From an uncultured Prevotellaceae bacterium (GTDB taxonomy: Bacteria > Bacteroidota > Bacteroidia > Bacteroidales > Bacteroidaceae): a stretch of 43,447 bases of DNA. The stretch covers positions 1 to 43,447 of the forward strand of contig ONDS01000020.1 of assembly GCA_900316685.1 (NCBI GenBank). The letters are read 5' to 3'. The notes under the pieces were generated by a model. The model saw only the letters and a program-made list of their open reading frames with translations, had not been told where the DNA came from and searched no databases. This document shows, piece after piece, positions 4,754 through 19,822 of this stretch. Position 1 is the first letter of the stretch, and every line of letters begins with the position of its first letter. A program made the position numbers and the translations under genes.

Positions 4754-5974
4754 TTAAAAACGTTGATAACAAAGATAATATTTACGTATTTTTTTGGAAA
4801 GAAGGGCTACATTCAGTATTTCCGACGCTTCGGCGATGTCTTTCGTGCACCCATCCTTATACAATATGCTGATGTGGTCGTCGGTCACGTCATACATGTC
4901 TTTCTGAATGGTGTTCAGGCTGTACAGATAGCGCAAATCGTCGCCGTGGATGCCTGTGGCTGCTTCCATACGGGCCTGGATGTCGGATATATATGCCTCG
5001 TCGAAGGGTTCTTCCTGTATCTCCACACGGAAGGGCGTGCGGTCTACCAAATCACCGGCCAACATGCGCAATACGGGGTCGCTGTGGTGCGACCATTCCT
5101 TGACGGCGCACCAGATGTCGTTGTCGTCCAAGCGCTCATAATAAAGCAGGGCTTCTTCGTGGCCGAGGAAATAATCACGGTCTACGTCGTGGCGAAGGAA
5201 GTATTGCAACGAAGGCGACGCGAACAGTTCTTCGCCGGCCAGGGACAGGTACTTGGCGCGCAACAGGGCATTCACCAACACTTTTTCCATAGCCACGGTG
5301 GTTTTGTGTAGGTAAACCTGCCAATACATCAGTCGACGCGAGGTGAGGTAGTTTTCTATCGAATAGATGCCTTTCGAATCCACCACCAACTCGTCGTCCT
5401 TCACGTTCAGCATCTTGATGATACGCGCACTGCCGATATTGCCTTCCGTCACGCCGGTAAAGAAACTGTCGCGACGCAGGTAGTCAAGCCTGTCTACATC
5501 CAACTGGCTGCTCAGCAACTGGTGCAAAAATCGTTTGGGATAGTCGCCTTGGAAAATCTTGATGGCCAGCGTGAGGGCTCCCTTCAGGTCGGCGTTGATC
5601 TGCTCCATCATCATCAGCGATATCTCTTCGTGGGAGATGCCGCTGATCAAGGTGTTCTCCAATACGTGAGAGAAGGGGCCATGACCGATGTCGTGCATCA
5701 GGATGGCGGCTTCCACGGCCTCTGCCTCGCTCTCGAAGATGAAGATGCCTTTCTGCGACAGCGAGAAGATGGCCTCGGTCATCAGGTGATAGGCTCCTAA
5801 AGAGTGCTGGAAACGGGTGTGCTGGGCTCCGGGATAAACCACGGAGGCCAAACCCAACTGCTTGATGCGCGACAACCGTTGAAACAACGGATGCTTGACA
5901 ATGTCGAGCAGAGGACCTCGCGGTATCTTGATGAATCCGAATACGGGGTCGTTGATAATCTTATGAACGCTCAT
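4754..5974 (-). CDS. HD-domain phosphohydrolase
   Basis: A 406-residue cytosolic protein of the HD superfamily, in the branch that resembles dNTP triphosphohydrolases (dGTPase/SAMHD1-like). The metal site is visible: HTRFQHSLG with His57, [13 protein letters not shown] with the His94-Asp95 doublet, and a downstream Asp in [15 protein letters not shown] near residue 160. Substrate is not determinable from sequence. It could hydrolyse dNTPs or another phosphate ester. The 3' end of pyrF overlaps its start by 4 bases (ATGA), suggesting translational coupling. The gene often sits next to lpxD in this order, although lpxD here has its own promoter. Confidence 0.9.
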
Positions 5975-12707: not shown

Positions 12708-12733
12708 AGAATGTGCCCTTTCCAATTTTTCTG

Positions 12734-12764
12734 CAAAATTAGTGCAAACCGAGTGAAAAACCAA
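12734..12764 (-). promoter_or_regulatory. Proximal phoH promoter
   Basis: On the minus strand TAATTTTG (12734-12741) matches TAnnTTTG exactly, and TTG (12762-12764) lies 20 bases upstream. This is a full Bacteroidetes -33/-7 pair. It is carried by the first 63-base repeat copy. Confidence 0.75.
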
Positions 12765-12949
12765 AATCTTTTTGGATTTTTCCGAGGTGCCGCCTAATTA
12801 ATTTAAAATTAGTGCAAGTTGAGAGAAATACAAAATGAAAAACTCAATTTTTCATTTTTATTTCCGAAACGCAGCCTAATTTATCCAAAATTAGTGCAAA
12901 CCGAGTGAAAAACCAAAATCTTTTTGGATTTTTCCGAGGTGCCGCCTAA
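12735..12949 (-). repeat. Triplicated promoter-bearing repeat upstream of phoH
   Basis: Two 63-base copies, 12735-12797 and 12887-12949, are identical. A third, diverged copy (12805-12879) lies between them and shares both ends (AAAATTAGTGCAA and GCCTAA). Its middle is replaced by a perfect 11-base inverted repeat (12832-12842 and 12848-12858, loop CTCAA). Each outer copy ends in a TAATTTTG box with TTG 20 bases upstream on the minus strand. In the middle copy the box is TAATTTTA. Confidence 0.9.
12886..12916 (-). promoter_or_regulatory. Distal phoH promoter in the second identical repeat copy
   Basis: TAATTTTG (12886-12893) with TTG (12914-12916) and a 20-base spacer on the minus strand. 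It duplicates the proximal promoter 152 bases upstream. Confidence 0.6.
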
Positions 12950-13006
12950 ATTATCCCCCTTTTCCTAAAAATCACAAAAACTTAACGCCGTTCAACTTTT
13001 TTTTAA

Positions 13007-13840: not shown

Positions 13841-13858
13841 TCTCCTCGCCCATTCATT

Positions 13859-13907
13859 GTTCAATGTTCAACGTTCAATGTTCAATGTTCAATGTTCAAT
13901 GTTCAAC
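13859..13907 (-). repeat. Seven-unit heptamer array downstream of the DUF5715-like gene
   Basis: Plus strand units are GTTCAAT or GTTCAAC, seven in a row. On the minus strand each unit has TTGAAC and hence TGA. Unlike the other arrays, this one is antisense to the completed plus-strand gene before it but in sense with the putative minus-strand unit starting near 14313. Confidence 0.9.
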
Positions 13908-14443: not shown

Positions 14444-14478
14444 AAAAAAAGAAACAGAGTAGGCGGCCACCTACTCTG
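14444..14478 (-). terminator. Terminator of the signalling operon
   Basis: CAGAGTAGG (14455-14463) pairs perfectly with CCTACTCTG (14470-14478) around a six-base loop. On the minus strand it is followed by TTTCTTTTTTT (14454-14444). It lies 67 bases past the stop of the AraC-like gene. Confidence 0.85.
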
Positions 14479-14545
14479 ATATATCATGCAAGAAACGAGA
14501 ATGCTGCGAACCTCAAAGGAGCACCTATGAATCTCTGGATTCCTC

Positions 14546-15109
14546 TTATAGGTCCCTGGTGAGCATATTGCGATAGTCGACTGGAGTCATACCCACGGCT
14601 TCCTGCACCCTACGCTGCAACGTGCGTACATTGCCATAGCCTGAATCTTCCGCGATGGATGCTATGCTGAAATTGGGATGTTCACGCAACAGACGCAAGG
14701 CCGTGAGCAAGCGCAGGTTGTCGATATATGCATCGGCACTGCGATAGATGGTGTTATGGCGGAAAAGACGGCTCAGACGCTCTTGGCTCACACCCAACAA
14801 CTGTGCCAACTGAACGGCGTTGAAATCGGGTGCTACATGTGGGCGGTCGGCTTCTACTCGCAACTCGATGAGGGCCATCAATTGTGAATCGTCTTGCAAA
14901 TCGGCGTTGCGCTGCCTTTCAATGTTGGCACTGAGTATCTCGCGGGCAACTTCCGTGCGACGACGGAACTCTATGTCTTCTTCCAATCGTTGGGAAAGGT
15001 CGAGATTGCGGCTCACTAACCGTACCATCTCGTTTCTCAGATGGTCGACTTCTTGGCGGAGGGCGGCATTCTCTTCCCGTAAACGGGTGATTTCTTCTTG
15101 ATCCTTCAT
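14546..15109 (-). CDS. Coiled-coil protein with a C-terminal AraC-type DNA-binding domain
   Basis: I place the start at ATG 15107-15109 (MKDQEEITRLREENAALR), giving 187 residues. The frame stays open to 15226, but that extension would overlap the STAS gene. Residues about 5-65 are a charged heptad-rich coiled coil likely to dimerise. Residues about 85-185 form an AraC/XylS-type double helix-turn-helix: LAQLLGVSQERLSRLFRHNT, then FSIASIAEDSGYGNVRTLQRRV and the family ending MTPVDYRNML. It has no ligand-binding domain. It follows the STAS gene by 19 bases in a phosphatase/STAS operon, so it is a candidate output or partner of that switch. The link is inferred from position. Confidence 0.8.
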   Translation of the reverse strand: MKDQEEITRLREENAALRQEVDHLRNEMVRLVSRNLDLSQRLEEDIEFRRRTEVAREILSANIERQRNADLQDDSQLMALIELRVEADRPHVAPDFNAVQLAQLLGVSQERLSRLFRHNTIYRSADAYIDNLRLLTALRLLREHPNFSIASIAEDSGYGNVRTLQRRVQEAVGMTPVDYRNMLTRDL

Positions 15110-15128
15110 CTTGATATCTTTGGGGTTG

Positions 15129-15446
15129 TTAATTGTCCTCGGAATCGGCAATCTCGAAGAGATTGTTGAAACCTGTGGTATAAAGCACCTCGCGAATGTC
15201 TTCTTTGACACCGACAAGGGTGACACGGCTGTTCACTGCGGCGGCATATTTGCGGATACCTAAAAGAATACGCAAACCGGAACTGCTGATATAGGTGAGC
15301 TGGCTGAAATCAAGGATGATATCATAGCCTTCACAATCGTGTAAAGCCATCAAGTCCTTGGCTGCTTGTTCTGATGCGGCGGTGTCAAGCCTGCCTTCAA
15401 GGGTGGCGATCATTTTACCGTCTTCTTTCCTAATAGTTGTATTCAT
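15129..15446 (-). CDS. STAS-domain anti-sigma-factor antagonist-like protein
   Basis: A 105-residue single-domain protein of the SpoIIAA/RsbV type. DFSQLTYISSSGLRILLG (about residues 46-63) matches the phosphorylation loop of antagonists, with Ser55/Ser56 as the likely phosphosite before Gly57. In known systems the unphosphorylated form binds a HATPase-type kinase and releases its other partner, and a SpoIIE-type phosphatase reactivates it. Both partner activities are encoded in the gene just upstream, 29 bases away, so this is very likely its substrate. No sigma factor gene is nearby. Confidence 0.9.
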   Translation of the reverse strand: MNTTIRKEDGKMIATLEGRLDTAASEQAAKDLMALHDCEGYDIILDFSQLTYISSSGLRILLGIRKYAAAVNSRVTLVGVKEDIREVLYTTGFNNLFEIADSEDN

Positions 15447-15475
15447 GTCTTTGGTTGTAAATGTTTCTAAATATA

Positions 15476-17692
15476 TTATAATCGTTTGATAAGCGTGAGA
15501 ACGTTTTGGCCGTCGATGCGGTTGTAATTGATGGAATCCATCATCTTCCTAATGAGATGGATGCCTAAACCGCCTATCGGACGCTCTTCGGTCGATAGGG
15601 TGGTGTCTGCTTCTTCAAAGGTGGTAGGGTCGAACGGAATGCCGTGGTCGGTGATGGTAAACTTCAGGGTTTCGTTGTCTGCATGAGCCTCAATTGTCAC
15701 TTCACCTTTGGTTGCTGAGGGATAGGCGTATTTCATTACATTCACCACGGCTTCTTCCACTGCCAGGTTCATCTGCATCGTTACCTTGGGAGTAAAACCT
15801 AAAGACTCGCATATCTCATCCACAAATATATTGAGTTGAGGAACGATTCGAACATTGCTCGGCAGGGTGAGGGTGCGTTCCAAACGGAAGGTTTCTTGCT
15901 CTTTGGTATAGCGGATGGCCATCATGGTGAGATCGTCACTACGCTCTGCACCGTCTACATATTTGTGTACTGCTGCAAGTATATGGTCTATGAGTGCATT
16001 CGCATTCCTGTCGCTCGAAGTGGTGATGTGATCGACCAAATTGCTCAGCAAACGGCGCTTGCCGAACATCTGATGGGTACTGTCCTCCGCTTCGGTCAAA
16101 CCATCGGTATAGAGGAAGATGGTGCTGCCGGGCTTGATGAATATCTCTTGCTCAGAGTACTTCCAACCTTTATATGTACCCAGGGGAAGGTTGGAGTCGC
16201 AAGGCAACTGTTCTACTTTCTCGCCGATGATGTAGGGGGCTTCGTGCCCGGCATTGCTGTAACGCAGACGACCCGAGGGAAGGTCGAGCACTCCTGCGAA
16301 AAAGGTGACGAACACATCGTTGGGGTTATCCTCCGACAAGGTGTCGCTGATGGCGGAGACAATGCGATGGGGTTTCGACTCATTCGAAATGACATTGCGG
16401 AATAGGGTGCGGGTAATGGCCATTACCAAGGAGGCGGGCACTCCCTTGCCCGACACGTCGCCAATACAGAAAAACAGTTTCTCATCGCGGATATGAAAAT
16501 CGTAGAGGTCGCCGCCAACAGCTTTGGCTGGCGTCAACGTGGCATGCACATCCACATCGTCGCGATCGGGGTAGGGTGGGAAGATCTTGGGCAAAAGGGC
16601 CATTTGGATGCCACTGGCTATCTGTATCTGGTTCTCAAGCTTGCTCTTCTGTATCTGGGCGGCGGCCAAACGGTTGGCACTCAGGAAGGAGCGCCAGATG
16701 ATATAACCCATCAGCGCTAAACCGACCAATAATAGCAAAAAGAGGTTGAAGCCTATTTTGCGAAGGTTGTGGAATATCTCCTTGTCGGGACAGACCACAG
16801 CCATCGACCAACCGGTCTCGCCATGGAGGGGAGCGAAGAACACGTAGTCTTTCTCTCCTTGGGCATTAATCACTGAAGCCTTGCCTTTCCTGCCGCCCAT
16901 CATCTCTCGGTTGATGTAATGGGCGGTGGTGTCTTCCAAACGCGCTGCCACGTCTTGGATGTTTCCGCGCATCACTAAACTCTCTTCAGGGCATACCATC
17001 AATTGACCCGTGCGCGATATGAGCACATTGTAACTCGTTGGATAGATGTGATTGGCATTGAGGGTGTCTGAGAGCCAATCAAGGGAGACATCGGCACCTA
17101 CAAGGCCGACGATGTTGCCTGTGACATCATGGATGGGATGGGTGTACGTACACAACATCATACGTGCTCCCGCCTCATCGTAATAAGGCTCACTCCAAGA
17201 ACCGTGACCCGCGCTGATGCCGTCGATGAACCAATGAGATTCCAAGTAATTATGGTTGGAATTGCCTATCTGCGAAACCTCTATCCTGTTGTTTTCACGT
17301 CTGGCTACATAGGGCTCAAACCACCGACCTTTCTCTGGATAGTAATTGGCGATGAAGGCGGCACCCACTCCCACGATGGTGGGATTGTTCTCTACCAAAC
17401 GACGGGTTTCCACATACAGGGAGTCCGGCTGACGAAGTCGTTTCTCTACAGCCCAGACAAGGTTGCCTACTGCTGTCTCTACGGCAATCATCACCTTTTG
17501 AATCTCAAGGTTCTTCACACGCAACTCAGTCTCGGCACGGTGCTGCACTTCTTCCTTGATCTCTTCACGGGCATACCAATATTGTATGCCGGCGGTCAAC
17601 TCTACAAGCACGGCGGCGGTCACTATCAACGCTACGCTCGATTTCGAACGCAACGTCTCAGGCCATAGTTTTCGTAATAAGCTGAACTTCAT
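15476..17692 (-). CDS. Cache sensor - SpoIIE phosphatase - HATPase fusion
   Basis: A 738-residue inner-membrane signalling protein. Domains in order: a transmembrane helix (about 20-40); an extracytoplasmic Cache-like sensor (about 45-310, with VGVGAAFIANYYPEKGRWFEPY and MLCTYTHPIHDVTGNIVGLV); a second helix (FNLFLLLLVGLALMGYIIW); a PP2C/SpoIIE phosphatase (about 370-590, with GGDLYDF, GDVSGKGVPASL, YTDGLTEAED and SDDLTMMAIRY); and a C-terminal RsbW-like HATPase with VEEAVVNVMKYAY, DHGIPFD and GGLGIHLI boxes. One chain could therefore both dephosphorylate and phosphorylate the STAS protein encoded next. It is first in the operon with a near-consensus promoter. The ligand is unknown. Confidence 0.93.
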   Translation of the reverse strand: MKFSLLRKLWPETLRSKSSVALIVTAAVLVELTAGIQYWYAREEIKEEVQHRAETELRVKNLEIQKVMIAVETAVGNLVWAVEKRLRQPDSLYVETRRLVENNPTIVGVGAAFIANYYPEKGRWFEPYVARRENNRIEVSQIGNSNHNYLESHWFIDGISAGHGSWSEPYYDEAGARMMLCTYTHPIHDVTGNIVGLVGADVSLDWLSDTLNANHIYPTSYNVLISRTGQLMVCPEESLVMRGNIQDVAARLEDTTAHYINREMMGGRKGKASVINAQGEKDYVFFAPLHGETGWSMAVVCPDKEIFHNLRKIGFNLFLLLLVGLALMGYIIWRSFLSANRLAAAQIQKSKLENQIQIASGIQMALLPKIFPPYPDRDDVDVHATLTPAKAVGGDLYDFHIRDEKLFFCIGDVSGKGVPASLVMAITRTLFRNVISNESKPHRIVSAISDTLSEDNPNDVFVTFFAGVLDLPSGRLRYSNAGHEAPYIIGEKVEQLPCDSNLPLGTYKGWKYSEQEIFIKPGSTIFLYTDGLTEAEDSTHQMFGKRRLLSNLVDHITTSSDRNANALIDHILAAVHKYVDGAERSDDLTMMAIRYTKEQETFRLERTLTLPSNVRIVPQLNIFVDEICESLGFTPKVTMQMNLAVEEAVVNVMKYAYPSATKGEVTIEAHADNETLKFTITDHGIPFDPTTFEEADTTLSTEERPIGGLGIHLIRKMMDSINYNRIDGQNVLTLIKRL

Positions 17693-17740
17693 AGGCAGTG
17701 GTTATGGATAGTAGTCGCTCTCCAATGCAATTATCTTATG

Positions 17741-17770
17741 CAAAGATAATGCAAATCGAGGGGAGAACAA
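17741..17770 (-). promoter_or_regulatory. Promoter of the Cache-SpoIIE operon
   Basis: On the minus strand TTG (17768-17770), a 19-base spacer and TATCTTTG (17741-17748) make an ideal Bacteroidetes promoter. It lies about 50 bases upstream of the ATG at 17692, in the gap after fbp. Confidence 0.85.
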
Positions 17771-17821
17771 AATTTATTGCGATTTTTATTCACTTCAAGG
17801 CTAATCCTGACCCTTTTACGG

Positions 17822-19822
17822 TCACGGACGGTTGCTCTTCATCTCGCGTTCTTTGATGAGACCATGGCGGTAAGCATAAAGAAGGGCCTGCAAATCGCTG
17901 ATCTGTTGCCTGATCTCTTTGCCCTTGTCGGTATCGGCAACCAACATGCGGTGCGACGACATCTCGATAATCTGCGTCGTACTCTTGATGTCGGTACCAC
18001 GCGCCACAGCATCACGTGAACTGGTAAACGGCTCATGCTGAACCAATTGGAAACCGCGACTGTGGTAAACCAGGGTGTAACCGGCGATACCGGTTTCCTT
18101 GTGATAGGCTTGCGAAAAACCACCATCGATGACCATCAACTTGCCGTTGGCCTTGATGGGGTTCTCGCCGGTCTTCACATGCACGGGAACATGACCGTTG
18201 ATGATATGGCGGTTGGGACCCTCCAGTCCGAACGAATCCATGATACGGTCGCAGATGGCTTCGTCGTTGCGCAAACGATAGTAATGGCCTTTCTCTTCCA
18301 CGTGGGTCTCCTTCTCCTTGATGAAATAACGCTCAAAGGTGGCCATCTTGGATTTGTCGAATAGCGGGGAGTCCTTGCCGCACCAGAGATAGAGGAAATA
18401 GTCCTTGGCGTATTCGCGCTCTTGGGGGATGGTGTCCGACTGGAAGGCGGAACGGATGAGCATGCCGATGCAGTGTAAGAGGTCTTTGCCGCTGACTTGC
18501 TTGTCGCCGAAGAAACGGACTTCACGCAGCGAACCGTCGGCATTCAAGGGTACGGAGGCGTGGAATAGCAGGTTGTTGTTGTATACCGCATACATACAGC
18601 CGTGCTGCAAAAGCAAACGGATATGGCGCTGCAACTTCTCGCTCACACGGAAGGAGTGATGCAATTTGCTCATTAGTGCCTGCTCTCCTTCTGTCAGGGC
18701 TTCGGGGGCATTGGGGTCGATGGTGGGGAAATGGCAGGAGGTCAGATCGTATGTGTTGCCTCCCAAATCTATGGTTCCGCTCTCGTAGTCGATATGGGTC
18801 AGCAAACGACGCTCGTCCATCGACCATTCGGGGTGCTTGGCAAATAACTGGCTTTCGGTCTTGAACTGCAACACGGAGATGGCTTTGTGCATCTGGGCGG
18901 TCAGCCGGCGGTATTTCTCGTCCATCATGCTCTCTCCAAACTCTCTGGGCTGGAATTCGCTACAGGGGTCGTCGCCGTAAGTGTCCATGGCGAAAGTGGC
19001 CAAAGGCATGAGATTGATACCGTAGCCTTCTTCCAACGTCTCTAAGTTGGCATAACGCAGACATAGGCGTATCACATTGCAGATGCAGGCATCGTTGCCG
19101 ACGGCGGCACCCATCCATAGAATGTCGTGGTTGCCCCATTGGATGTCCCAACTATGGTATTTCTCCATCGTGTCGAGAATGAGATGGGCTCCAGGACCAC
19201 GGTCGAAGATATCGCCGAGGATATGTAATTGGTCGATGGCGAGACGATGGATGACATTGGCGATGGCGATGATGAAATCGTCGGCACGCCCGGTGGAGAT
19301 GATGGTGTCGGTGATGGCGTTCACATAGGCGGTCTTGTTGGCATCGTCGGTGCGCTCGTGCAACAACTCCTGGATTATGTAGCTGAAGTCGGCGGGAAGC
19401 GATTTGCGCACCTTGGAACGGGTGTATTTGCTGGATACATCACGGCATACTCGTACCAGGTGGTGTATGGTGATGTGGTACCAGTCGTCCAACTCCGACT
19501 CGCTCGATTTCACAAGGCCGAGCTTTTTCTCCGGGTAATAGATGAGGGTGCACAGCTCGCGTTTCTCCGATTCGCGCATCTCATTGCCGAATAATTCGTT
19601 CACCTTGCGCTTGATGTTGCCCGAGGCATTGCGAAGCACATGCTGGAAGGCTTCATATTCGCCATGAAGGTCGGCCAGGAAATGTTCCGTTCCTTTGGGC
19701 AGGTTCAGGATGGCTTGCAGATTGATAATCTCAGTGCTCGCTTCGGCCACGGTGGGAAACGAGTGGGAGAGCAATTCTAAATAACGCGGGTCGGCCGTAC
19801 TTTCGTGAATAGTCGTTGTCAT
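17822..19822 (-). CDS. fbp: Fructose-1,6-bisphosphatase class III
   Basis: A 666-residue cytosolic gluconeogenic enzyme that hydrolyses fructose 1,6-bisphosphate to fructose 6-phosphate. It belongs to the class III family first known from Firmicutes and common in Bacteroidetes, which has a metallophosphatase fold. Visible metal-site motifs are ADLHGEYEAF (about 52-61), HILGDIFDRGPGAH, WGNHDILWMG and NGHVPVHVKTGENPIKANGK. Length fits the family (about 650). It lies 26 bases after the glycosyltransferase-like gene, probably as the last gene of that run. The next promoter, for the signalling operon, lies beyond it. Confidence 0.96.
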   Translation of the reverse strand: MTTTIHESTADPRYLELLSHSFPTVAEASTEIINLQAILNLPKGTEHFLADLHGEYEAFQHVLRNASGNIKRKVNELFGNEMRESEKRELCTLIYYPEKKLGLVKSSESELDDWYHITIHHLVRVCRDVSSKYTRSKVRKSLPADFSYIIQELLHERTDDANKTAYVNAITDTIISTGRADDFIIAIANVIHRLAIDQLHILGDIFDRGPGAHLILDTMEKYHSWDIQWGNHDILWMGAAVGNDACICNVIRLCLRYANLETLEEGYGINLMPLATFAMDTYGDDPCSEFQPREFGESMMDEKYRRLTAQMHKAISVLQFKTESQLFAKHPEWSMDERRLLTHIDYESGTIDLGGNTYDLTSCHFPTIDPNAPEALTEGEQALMSKLHHSFRVSEKLQRHIRLLLQHGCMYAVYNNNLLFHASVPLNADGSLREVRFFGDKQVSGKDLLHCIGMLIRSAFQSDTIPQEREYAKDYFLYLWCGKDSPLFDKSKMATFERYFIKEKETHVEEKGHYYRLRNDEAICDRIMDSFGLEGPNRHIINGHVPVHVKTGENPIKANGKLMVIDGGFSQAYHKETGIAGYTLVYHSRGFQLVQHEPFTSSRDAVARGTDIKSTTQIIEMSSHRMLVADTDKGKEIRQQISDLQALLYAYRHGLIKEREMKSNRP

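Follow-up and report, generated by a model that had tools for sequence, protein, structure and literature searches.

The genes and proteins of the operon

The window is a 43,447-nucleotide stretch of contig ONDS01000020.1 (positions 1–43,447; assembly GCA_900316685.1) of an uncultured gut bacterium of the Prevotellaceae, and it carries on its minus strand, between positions 17771 and 14455, a promoter, a membrane sensor gene, a gene for a STAS protein, a gene for an AraC-type regulator and a terminator, in that order (Table 1). A preliminary description of the sequence proposed a three-gene operon between promoter and terminator, and this is borne out by the gene calls, the Pfam domains, an exact promoter match and a strong hairpin. 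Judged by sequence, the gene products make up a complete partner-switching set, i.e., a SpoIIE phosphatase, an RsbW-type HATPase and a STAS protein with conserved serines, from which the classical sigma factor target is absent.

Table 1. Coordinates of the operon features in the window (aa, amino acids)
Feature	Position	Strand	Basis
Membrane sensor, 738 aa	15476..17692	-	Pfam and NCBIfam
Single-domain STAS protein, 105 aa, SpoIIAA/RsbV-like	15129..15446	-	Pfam, TIGR00377
AraC-type regulator, 187 aa	14546..15109	-	HTH_18, HTH_AraC, AlphaFold
Promoter TTTG-N19-TAnnTTTG	17741..17771	-	Exact motif match
Rho-independent terminator 3′ of the AraC gene	14455..14478	-	10-bp stem, then T-rich tail

No SigB/F/G-type sigma factor in the genome of the window, which is 89.83% complete, exceeds the model cut-off of 234.35 bits; seven matches to the SigBFG model are found, the best at 123.5 bits. 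No sigma factor gene lies within the operon. This supports the earlier reading that, in a phylum without sigma-B, an AraC-type protein is encoded where a sigma factor would be looked for. A sigma factor as the output of this operon was ruled out on the same grounds, i.e., that no match passes the cut-off.

The AraC-type gene is taken to start at an ATG 19 bp past the STAS stop codon; an alternative open reading frame of 226 aa, with a GTG start at 15226, overlaps the STAS gene. Pfam matches are to HTH_18 (3.8e-16) and HTH_AraC (1.1e-11), the helix-turn-helix (HTH) region, of the two-HTH AraC type, spans residues 74–184, and the profile of the protein matches structures of SoxS, MarA and AraC. 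The AlphaFold model displays one helix at residues 2–70 followed by a seven-helix AraC domain, with a mean predicted local distance difference test score (pLDDT) of 88.9 and a predicted template modelling score (pTM) of 0.59. By blocks, the pLDDT of the long helix is 85–96 as far as residue 60 and drops to 71 over residues 61–70. The helix has a leucine-zipper pattern (L10, L17, L24, L31 and L38) and is all that precedes the HTH; neither Pfam nor AlphaFold reveals a ligand-sensing domain, which many but not all AraC/XylS regulators have. The third gene is thus predicted to encode a sensorless AraC-type regulator with a coiled coil, in agreement with the preliminary description.

Residues 43–90 of the regulator, outside the DNA-binding domain, have a mean entropy of 0.70 in copies linked to STAS, compared with 0.71 for the HTH. 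Unlinked copies are hardly less conserved (0.70 and 0.75, respectively). R30, R34, L36, E43, R51, A55 and R65 are among the residues invariant in 48 of 48 sequences, and they differ in five relatives with a transmembrane anchor. Conservation of the stalk would fit partner binding, but dimerisation would fit as well. There are also AraC relatives (L110–L115) in which a hydrophobic, probably membrane-spanning N-terminal segment precedes the coiled coil and which have no STAS gene nearby. A soluble paralogue with 36% identity is present in the same genome (L094, G000:C36:26500-36500, at 4932-5504); it follows a gene whose 701-aa product matches no Pfam family, and the 10 kb around it contain no STAS or SpoIIE gene.

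The STAS protein matches its Pfam family at 6.9e-17 and TIGR00377 at 66.7 bits (cut-off 53.45), and its nearest solved structures include SpoIIAA. A serine run, Ser54-Ser55-Ser56, precedes the residues GL and is kept in all 61 aligned AraC-linked STAS proteins. Phosphorylation had been proposed at Ser55/56; these serines are indeed conserved, but the alignment makes the whole run Ser54-55-56 the candidate site. Ser25 is found in 59 of the 61 AraC-linked proteins and in 9 of 23 STAS proteins of other outputs, and Gln27 in 51 of 61 and 8 of 23, respectively. The pattern is suggestive as a mark of AraC-linked STAS proteins, the comparison set being small and of common descent and the two groups sharing ancestry.

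The sensor has a PDC/dCache-like domain at approximately residues 97–299, a SpoIIE/PP2C phosphatase at 403–595 and an RsbW/SpoIIAB-type HATPase at 611–736, with Pfam E-values of 1.5e-20 (MCP-like_PDC_1), 3.8e-50 (SpoIIE) and 7.1e-27 (HATPase_c_2). The HATPase matches rsbW_low_gc at 6.7e-13 and 48 bits, under the 155-bit equivalog cut-off of that model. Related sensors were compared in an alignment of 59 of the 62 listed proteins (all except both proteins of locus L132 and the second of L186), to which the window's own sensor does not belong. The phosphatase aspartate columns are invariant in all 59, and the same motifs are present in the window's protein. The kinase boxes are conserved in the AraC-linked set (N-box E/E/N, G1 D/G and G2 GG-G columns). 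Domain scans of 59 linked sensors detect SpoIIE and the PDC domain in all 59, HATPase_c_2 in 56 and HAMP in 11.

The promoter motif, which we take to be the Bacteroidetes consensus, has three exact matches in the window, compared with 0.61 expected in shuffled sequence. It is found upstream of 24 of the 56 sensor genes of such operons that have sufficient upstream sequence, the window included, against 0.3 in shuffles. The terminator hairpin (14478..14455, minus strand) folds at -15.5 kcal/mol with a z-score of -3.36. Terminators follow the AraC genes of relatives in only 6 of 78 cases by a crude rule (1.0 in shuffles), and the strong terminator thus does not appear to be general. A fructose-bisphosphatase gene on the same strand ends at 17822, upstream of the operon; transcription may read through from it, since the terminator scan lists none between this gene and the promoter.

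Linkage and descent of the three genes

One genome per GTDB species was scanned, which yielded 127 confirmed AraC relatives, and the classification covers the best 80 of them in full. Some of these loci are on the same contigs as genomes sampled from the family and the order (e.g., L120/G351 and L172/G653), and the two sets are not summed. STAS is encoded directly upstream and on the same strand in 66 of the 80, and kinase or phosphatase domains are also found beside STAS and AraC in 62, with both domains present in 57. The three genes thus mostly stay together in these relatives from Bacteroidales, a point that the preliminary description had singled out for checking. Distances between STAS and AraC genes are short (n = 63), with a median of 4 nucleotides (nt); 53 are 30 nt or less and 22 are overlaps, 21 of them of 4 nt. 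At L132 the HATPase adjoining STAS is a separate gene, and at four loci (L138, L140, L159 and L192) STAS is found without detectable sensor domains, that of L140 being the second half only. Eight less related AraC-type genes, i.e., the genome's own paralogue and seven others, have no STAS gene within the 6–10 kb fetched. Chance adjacency of STAS and AraC was ruled out on this basis, 66 of 80 relatives being linked as opposed to none of these eight.

AraC relatives with at least 66% identity are found in 8 of 399 sampled genomes of the family and in one more (G211) among 295 of the order. STAS and sensor genes adjoin in five of the nine (G000, G211, G413, G490 and G406), only remnants or fragments are present in G420 and G462, and AraC is alone in G351 and G653. 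The record titles of the 80 relatives read Prevotella, Prevotellaceae, Bacteroidaceae, Bacteroidales and, once, Muribaculaceae; most are metagenome-assembled genomes from ruminants, and one is the genome record of Prevotella sp. ne3005.

Identity to the window proteins is 59–79% for AraC, 34–54% for STAS and 30–74% for the HATPase, the top value stemming from a 53-residue fragment; by this comparison the module partners vary far more than AraC. Among the HATPases, the linked rows form two separate blocks; the first has 33 rows, and the 28 of the second are interspersed with modules of other outputs. Nevertheless, the approximately unbiased (AU) test does not reject a single clade of linked modules, with p-AU values of 0.769 for the HATPase and 0.406 for STAS. 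Two independent origins of the linkage are therefore unsupported, as one clade is not rejected for either protein. Six changes account for the unlinked copies on the AraC tree, compared with 13.1 in shuffles, and well-supported branches force only one. Several unlinked copies fall within linked groups, which fits losses of linkage. The trees suggest that the linkage is old and has been kept, perhaps from one origin.

Other genes recur at these loci. A protein of about 600 aa with no Pfam match adjoins the AraC operons at 12 of the 80 loci, and at 6 of the 80 there is a protease of the clostripain family beside them; one or both are found at L132, L166, L178, L183, L193 and others.

Sister modules and unlinked AraC genes

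SpoIIE and STAS each have exactly two matches in the genome of the window, one in the operon and one in a second module (L095, G000:C42:36000-46000). This module encodes, in one direction, a sensor, a STAS protein, an alginate-export-like outer-membrane protein and a protein resembling a non-ribosomal peptide synthetase (NRPS), the last judged from sequence. It is one of 26 sister modules (L095, L097–L101 and L197–L216) that were chosen as high-scoring matches to the window sensor and not at random, and whose neighbouring genes were scanned in part. In seven (L097, L201, L203, L204, L205, L209 and L210) the STAS domain and an APH-type kinase form one fused protein, encoded beside the Cache-SpoIIE sensor, an arrangement that places STAS next to the output. 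A CitMHS/TrkA_C transporter adjoins five (L199, L202, L206, L207 and L208). A RelA/SpoT-domain gene is directly beside STAS in three (L202, L206 and L214), together with an HD_4 gene in L202, and these neighbours point to a possible link between partner switching and (p)ppGpp. Alginate-export-like proteins, or an NRPS with a phosphopantetheinyl transferase, are found in three (L095, L098 and L212), a sodium/proton exchanger in two (L211 and L215) and a phosphatidylserine decarboxylase in one (L213). Given this array of neighbours, AraC appears to be one output among several that modules of this type have.

The preliminary description took frequent separation of the AraC-like gene from the other two as evidence against its reading. 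Separation from STAS is found for 14 of the 80 AraC genes, yet all 14 genomes hold sensor homologues (E up to 1e-10), with 1 to 43 matches each; Prevotella sp. ne3005 has 31. Of the 399 genomes sampled from the family, 151 have a sensor homologue at E up to 1e-20, and these include seven of the eight AraC genomes (hypergeometric p 0.0055, not corrected for relatedness). SpoIIE-containing proteins are very numerous in some rumen Prevotellaceae genomes (G690–G703).

Two of the unlinked cases, G691 and G693 (loci L134 and L141), have AraC within an operon for starch use, flanked by GH97 and pullulanase genes, as determined by Pfam scan for L134 and by shared gene clusters for L141. G691 has a single sensor match and G693 three; in both, STAS comes after a sensor of 50–51% full-length identity and the next gene is on the opposite strand, so that the pair has no adjoining output gene. 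Ser25 and Gln27 are both present in these STAS proteins. The arrangement suggests that unlinked AraC proteins may be served in trans by a sensor and STAS encoded elsewhere, with starch use as one target. Other unlinked copies are found by TonB-dependent receptor genes (L135, from the cultured Prevotella sp. ne3005, and L147) and by RecG and M23 peptidase genes (L150 group).

Two repeat regions are present elsewhere in the window. Imperfect repeats of 75–82 nt at 12728-12987, before phoH, contain two identical promoter-like sequences 152 bp apart, and their core 14-mer occurs only at those two places in the genome assembly. At 13853-13906, just downstream of a DUF5715 gene, there are 7.7 copies of the 7-bp unit TTCAATG.

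Proposed mechanism and relation to known systems

The reading favoured here, with a probability of roughly 0.55, is that the operon forms a partner-switching module complete in itself, whose dedicated output is the AraC-type transcription factor. That AraC is the output of the module is, taken by itself, a good deal more secure; that STAS itself contacts AraC falls somewhat short of an even chance. In the proposed mechanism the periplasmic PDC domain would sense a ligand and thereby change how active SpoIIE phosphatase and RsbW-type kinase, both parts of one chain, are relative to each other. This balance would set phosphorylation of STAS at its serine run, and the phosphorylation state would decide the activity of an AraC dimer. 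Most likely dephosphorylated STAS would dock on the coiled-coil stalk and switch DNA binding on or off. The sequences establish which parts are present, how they are ordered, that they are conserved and that their genes are linked; we infer the phosphorylation, the docking and its sign, as well as the target genes. STAS is preferred as the contact because fusions of STAS to outputs occur and because non-sigma targets of STAS proteins are established elsewhere.

In favour of this reading are the gene linkage with its short gaps, the conserved catalytic residues and STAS serines, an AraC that varies less than its partners, the lack of STAS beside less related AraC-type genes, the conserved stalk, the presence of sensors in genomes with unlinked AraC, the fusions of STAS to a kinase, the Ser25 pattern and the precedent of SiaC and SiaD. 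Several observations weigh against it. Covariation of distances over 56 loci, with the other two partners taken out, gives -0.03 for stalk and STAS, 0.18 for stalk and HATPase (bootstrap -0.003 to 0.29) and 0.21 for stalk and SpoIIE; STAS is thus given no preference, and descent of the sensor gene may be all that these values reflect. A fold of the read-through STAS-AraC chain of L184 has a pTM of 0.41 and a disordered linker (pLDDT 39), and displays no confident docking, with AraC as a monomer and only 9 of 44 alignment rows paired. The 66 linked loci do not count as independent events, as a single origin of the linkage is not rejected, and the 14 separate AraC genes must be set beside them.

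The covariation data bear also on an anti-sigma-like arrangement, patterned by analogy on the displacement of sigma-B from RsbW by RsbV, in which the membrane-bound HATPase would hold AraC off DNA by the stalk until displaced by dephosphorylated STAS. The HATPase_c_2 domain scores as RsbW/SpoIIAB-like, stalk distances track the HATPase given STAS (0.39, permutation p 0.001), and the HATPase exceeds STAS in 0.895 of bootstraps. The signal falls to the 0.18 cited above once SpoIIE, which is part of the same chain, is removed, and the HATPase exceeds SpoIIE in only half of the bootstraps; the signal may therefore be shared descent of the sensor gene. HATPases of sister modules would in addition have to hold transporters, RelA/SpoT proteins and NRPS-associated proteins, and the arrangement is considered unlikely. 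Lack of any contact, with AraC as a co-transcribed regulator (e.g., of the operon's own promoter) and STAS acting on another target, is judged equally unlikely. It would agree with the failure of both covariation and the pseudo-complex fold to reveal a contact, with the AraC genes found apart and with the 4 of 80 loci where STAS has no detected kinase or phosphatase. It does not readily account for an AraC protein that has no ligand-sensing domain, a conserved stalk and linkage in most relatives, and a gapped 4-mer word search upstream of 56 operons gave no clear operator, returning mainly the promoter's TATCTTTG and A/T-tract words (some of them AAAA-N11/12-TTTG). A conventional partner switch that acts in trans on a sigma factor encoded elsewhere, AraC being incidental, could draw on other sigma-70-type proteins of the genome, to which the seven SigBFG-model matches attest, but none reaches the cut-off and the linked partner is AraC and not a sigma factor gene; this appears very improbable.

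A wider proposal may be offered tentatively: partner switching in Prevotellaceae would be a general module with exchangeable outputs, the phosphorylation state of STAS would here directly gate AraC through its stalk, and some copies would act in trans on AraC genes that have been relocated to operons under their own control, e.g., those for starch. The linked AraC regulator is a concrete candidate for a STAS target in a phylum without sigma-B, and it makes the question of STAS targets directly testable. The many outputs of one phosphatase, kinase and STAS module suggest that rumen Prevotellaceae commonly use partner switching as a layer of signalling. No report of an AraC-type output, or of this signalling in Prevotella, was found in searches of an open-access library of papers. 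A 2021 review of STAS-only proteins lists, in its section on non-canonical STAS proteins, several with unknown targets, and a word search of it returned no AraC, Bacteroid or Prevotella.

The operon resembles the RsbU-RsbW-RsbV and SpoIIE-SpoIIAB-SpoIIAA systems of Bacillus in its SpoIIE phosphatase, RsbW-type HATPase and STAS substrate with a conserved serine. It differs in that phosphatase and kinase are fused under a PDC sensor, the output is of AraC type and no SigB/F/G factor exceeds the cut-off. Rv1364c of M. tuberculosis (3ke6) is the best PDB sequence match of the sensor (residues 374–684, E 3.3e-14) and matches both the SpoIIE and the HATPase parts in one chain; it is not known to have an AraC output. 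The ExsA-ExsD-ExsC-ExsE system places an AraC-type activator under partner switching without phosphorylation, and has no STAS protein, kinase or phosphatase.

Further parallels come from systems of other bacteria. HsbR-HsbA of P. aeruginosa and CrsR-CrsA of S. oneidensis unite phosphatase and kinase in a single chain that acts on a STAS protein with non-sigma targets (FlgM and HsbD). They differ in that a receiver domain replaces the membrane-bound PDC sensor, and no AraC-type output is described in the accounts consulted. SypE of V. fischeri is likewise a dual kinase/phosphatase chain, although receiver-controlled; its STAS partner SypA is phosphorylated at Ser56, has an output that is not a known sigma factor and has a target reported as unknown. 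The SiaABCD system of P. aeruginosa provides the model borrowed for docking: in its unphosphorylated form SiaC attaches to the coiled-coil stalk of SiaD, a dimeric diguanylate cyclase. The likeness would be one of mechanism; in SiaABCD kinase and phosphatase are separate and the output is a diguanylate cyclase. The union of phosphatase and kinase in one chain, which the preliminary description singled out, is already known, as HsbR, SypE and the match to Rv1364c indicate. What appears to be new is the AraC-type output, a variant of partner switching that does not constitute a new category; in this branch the switch has probably come to serve a kind of output that it does not have elsewhere.

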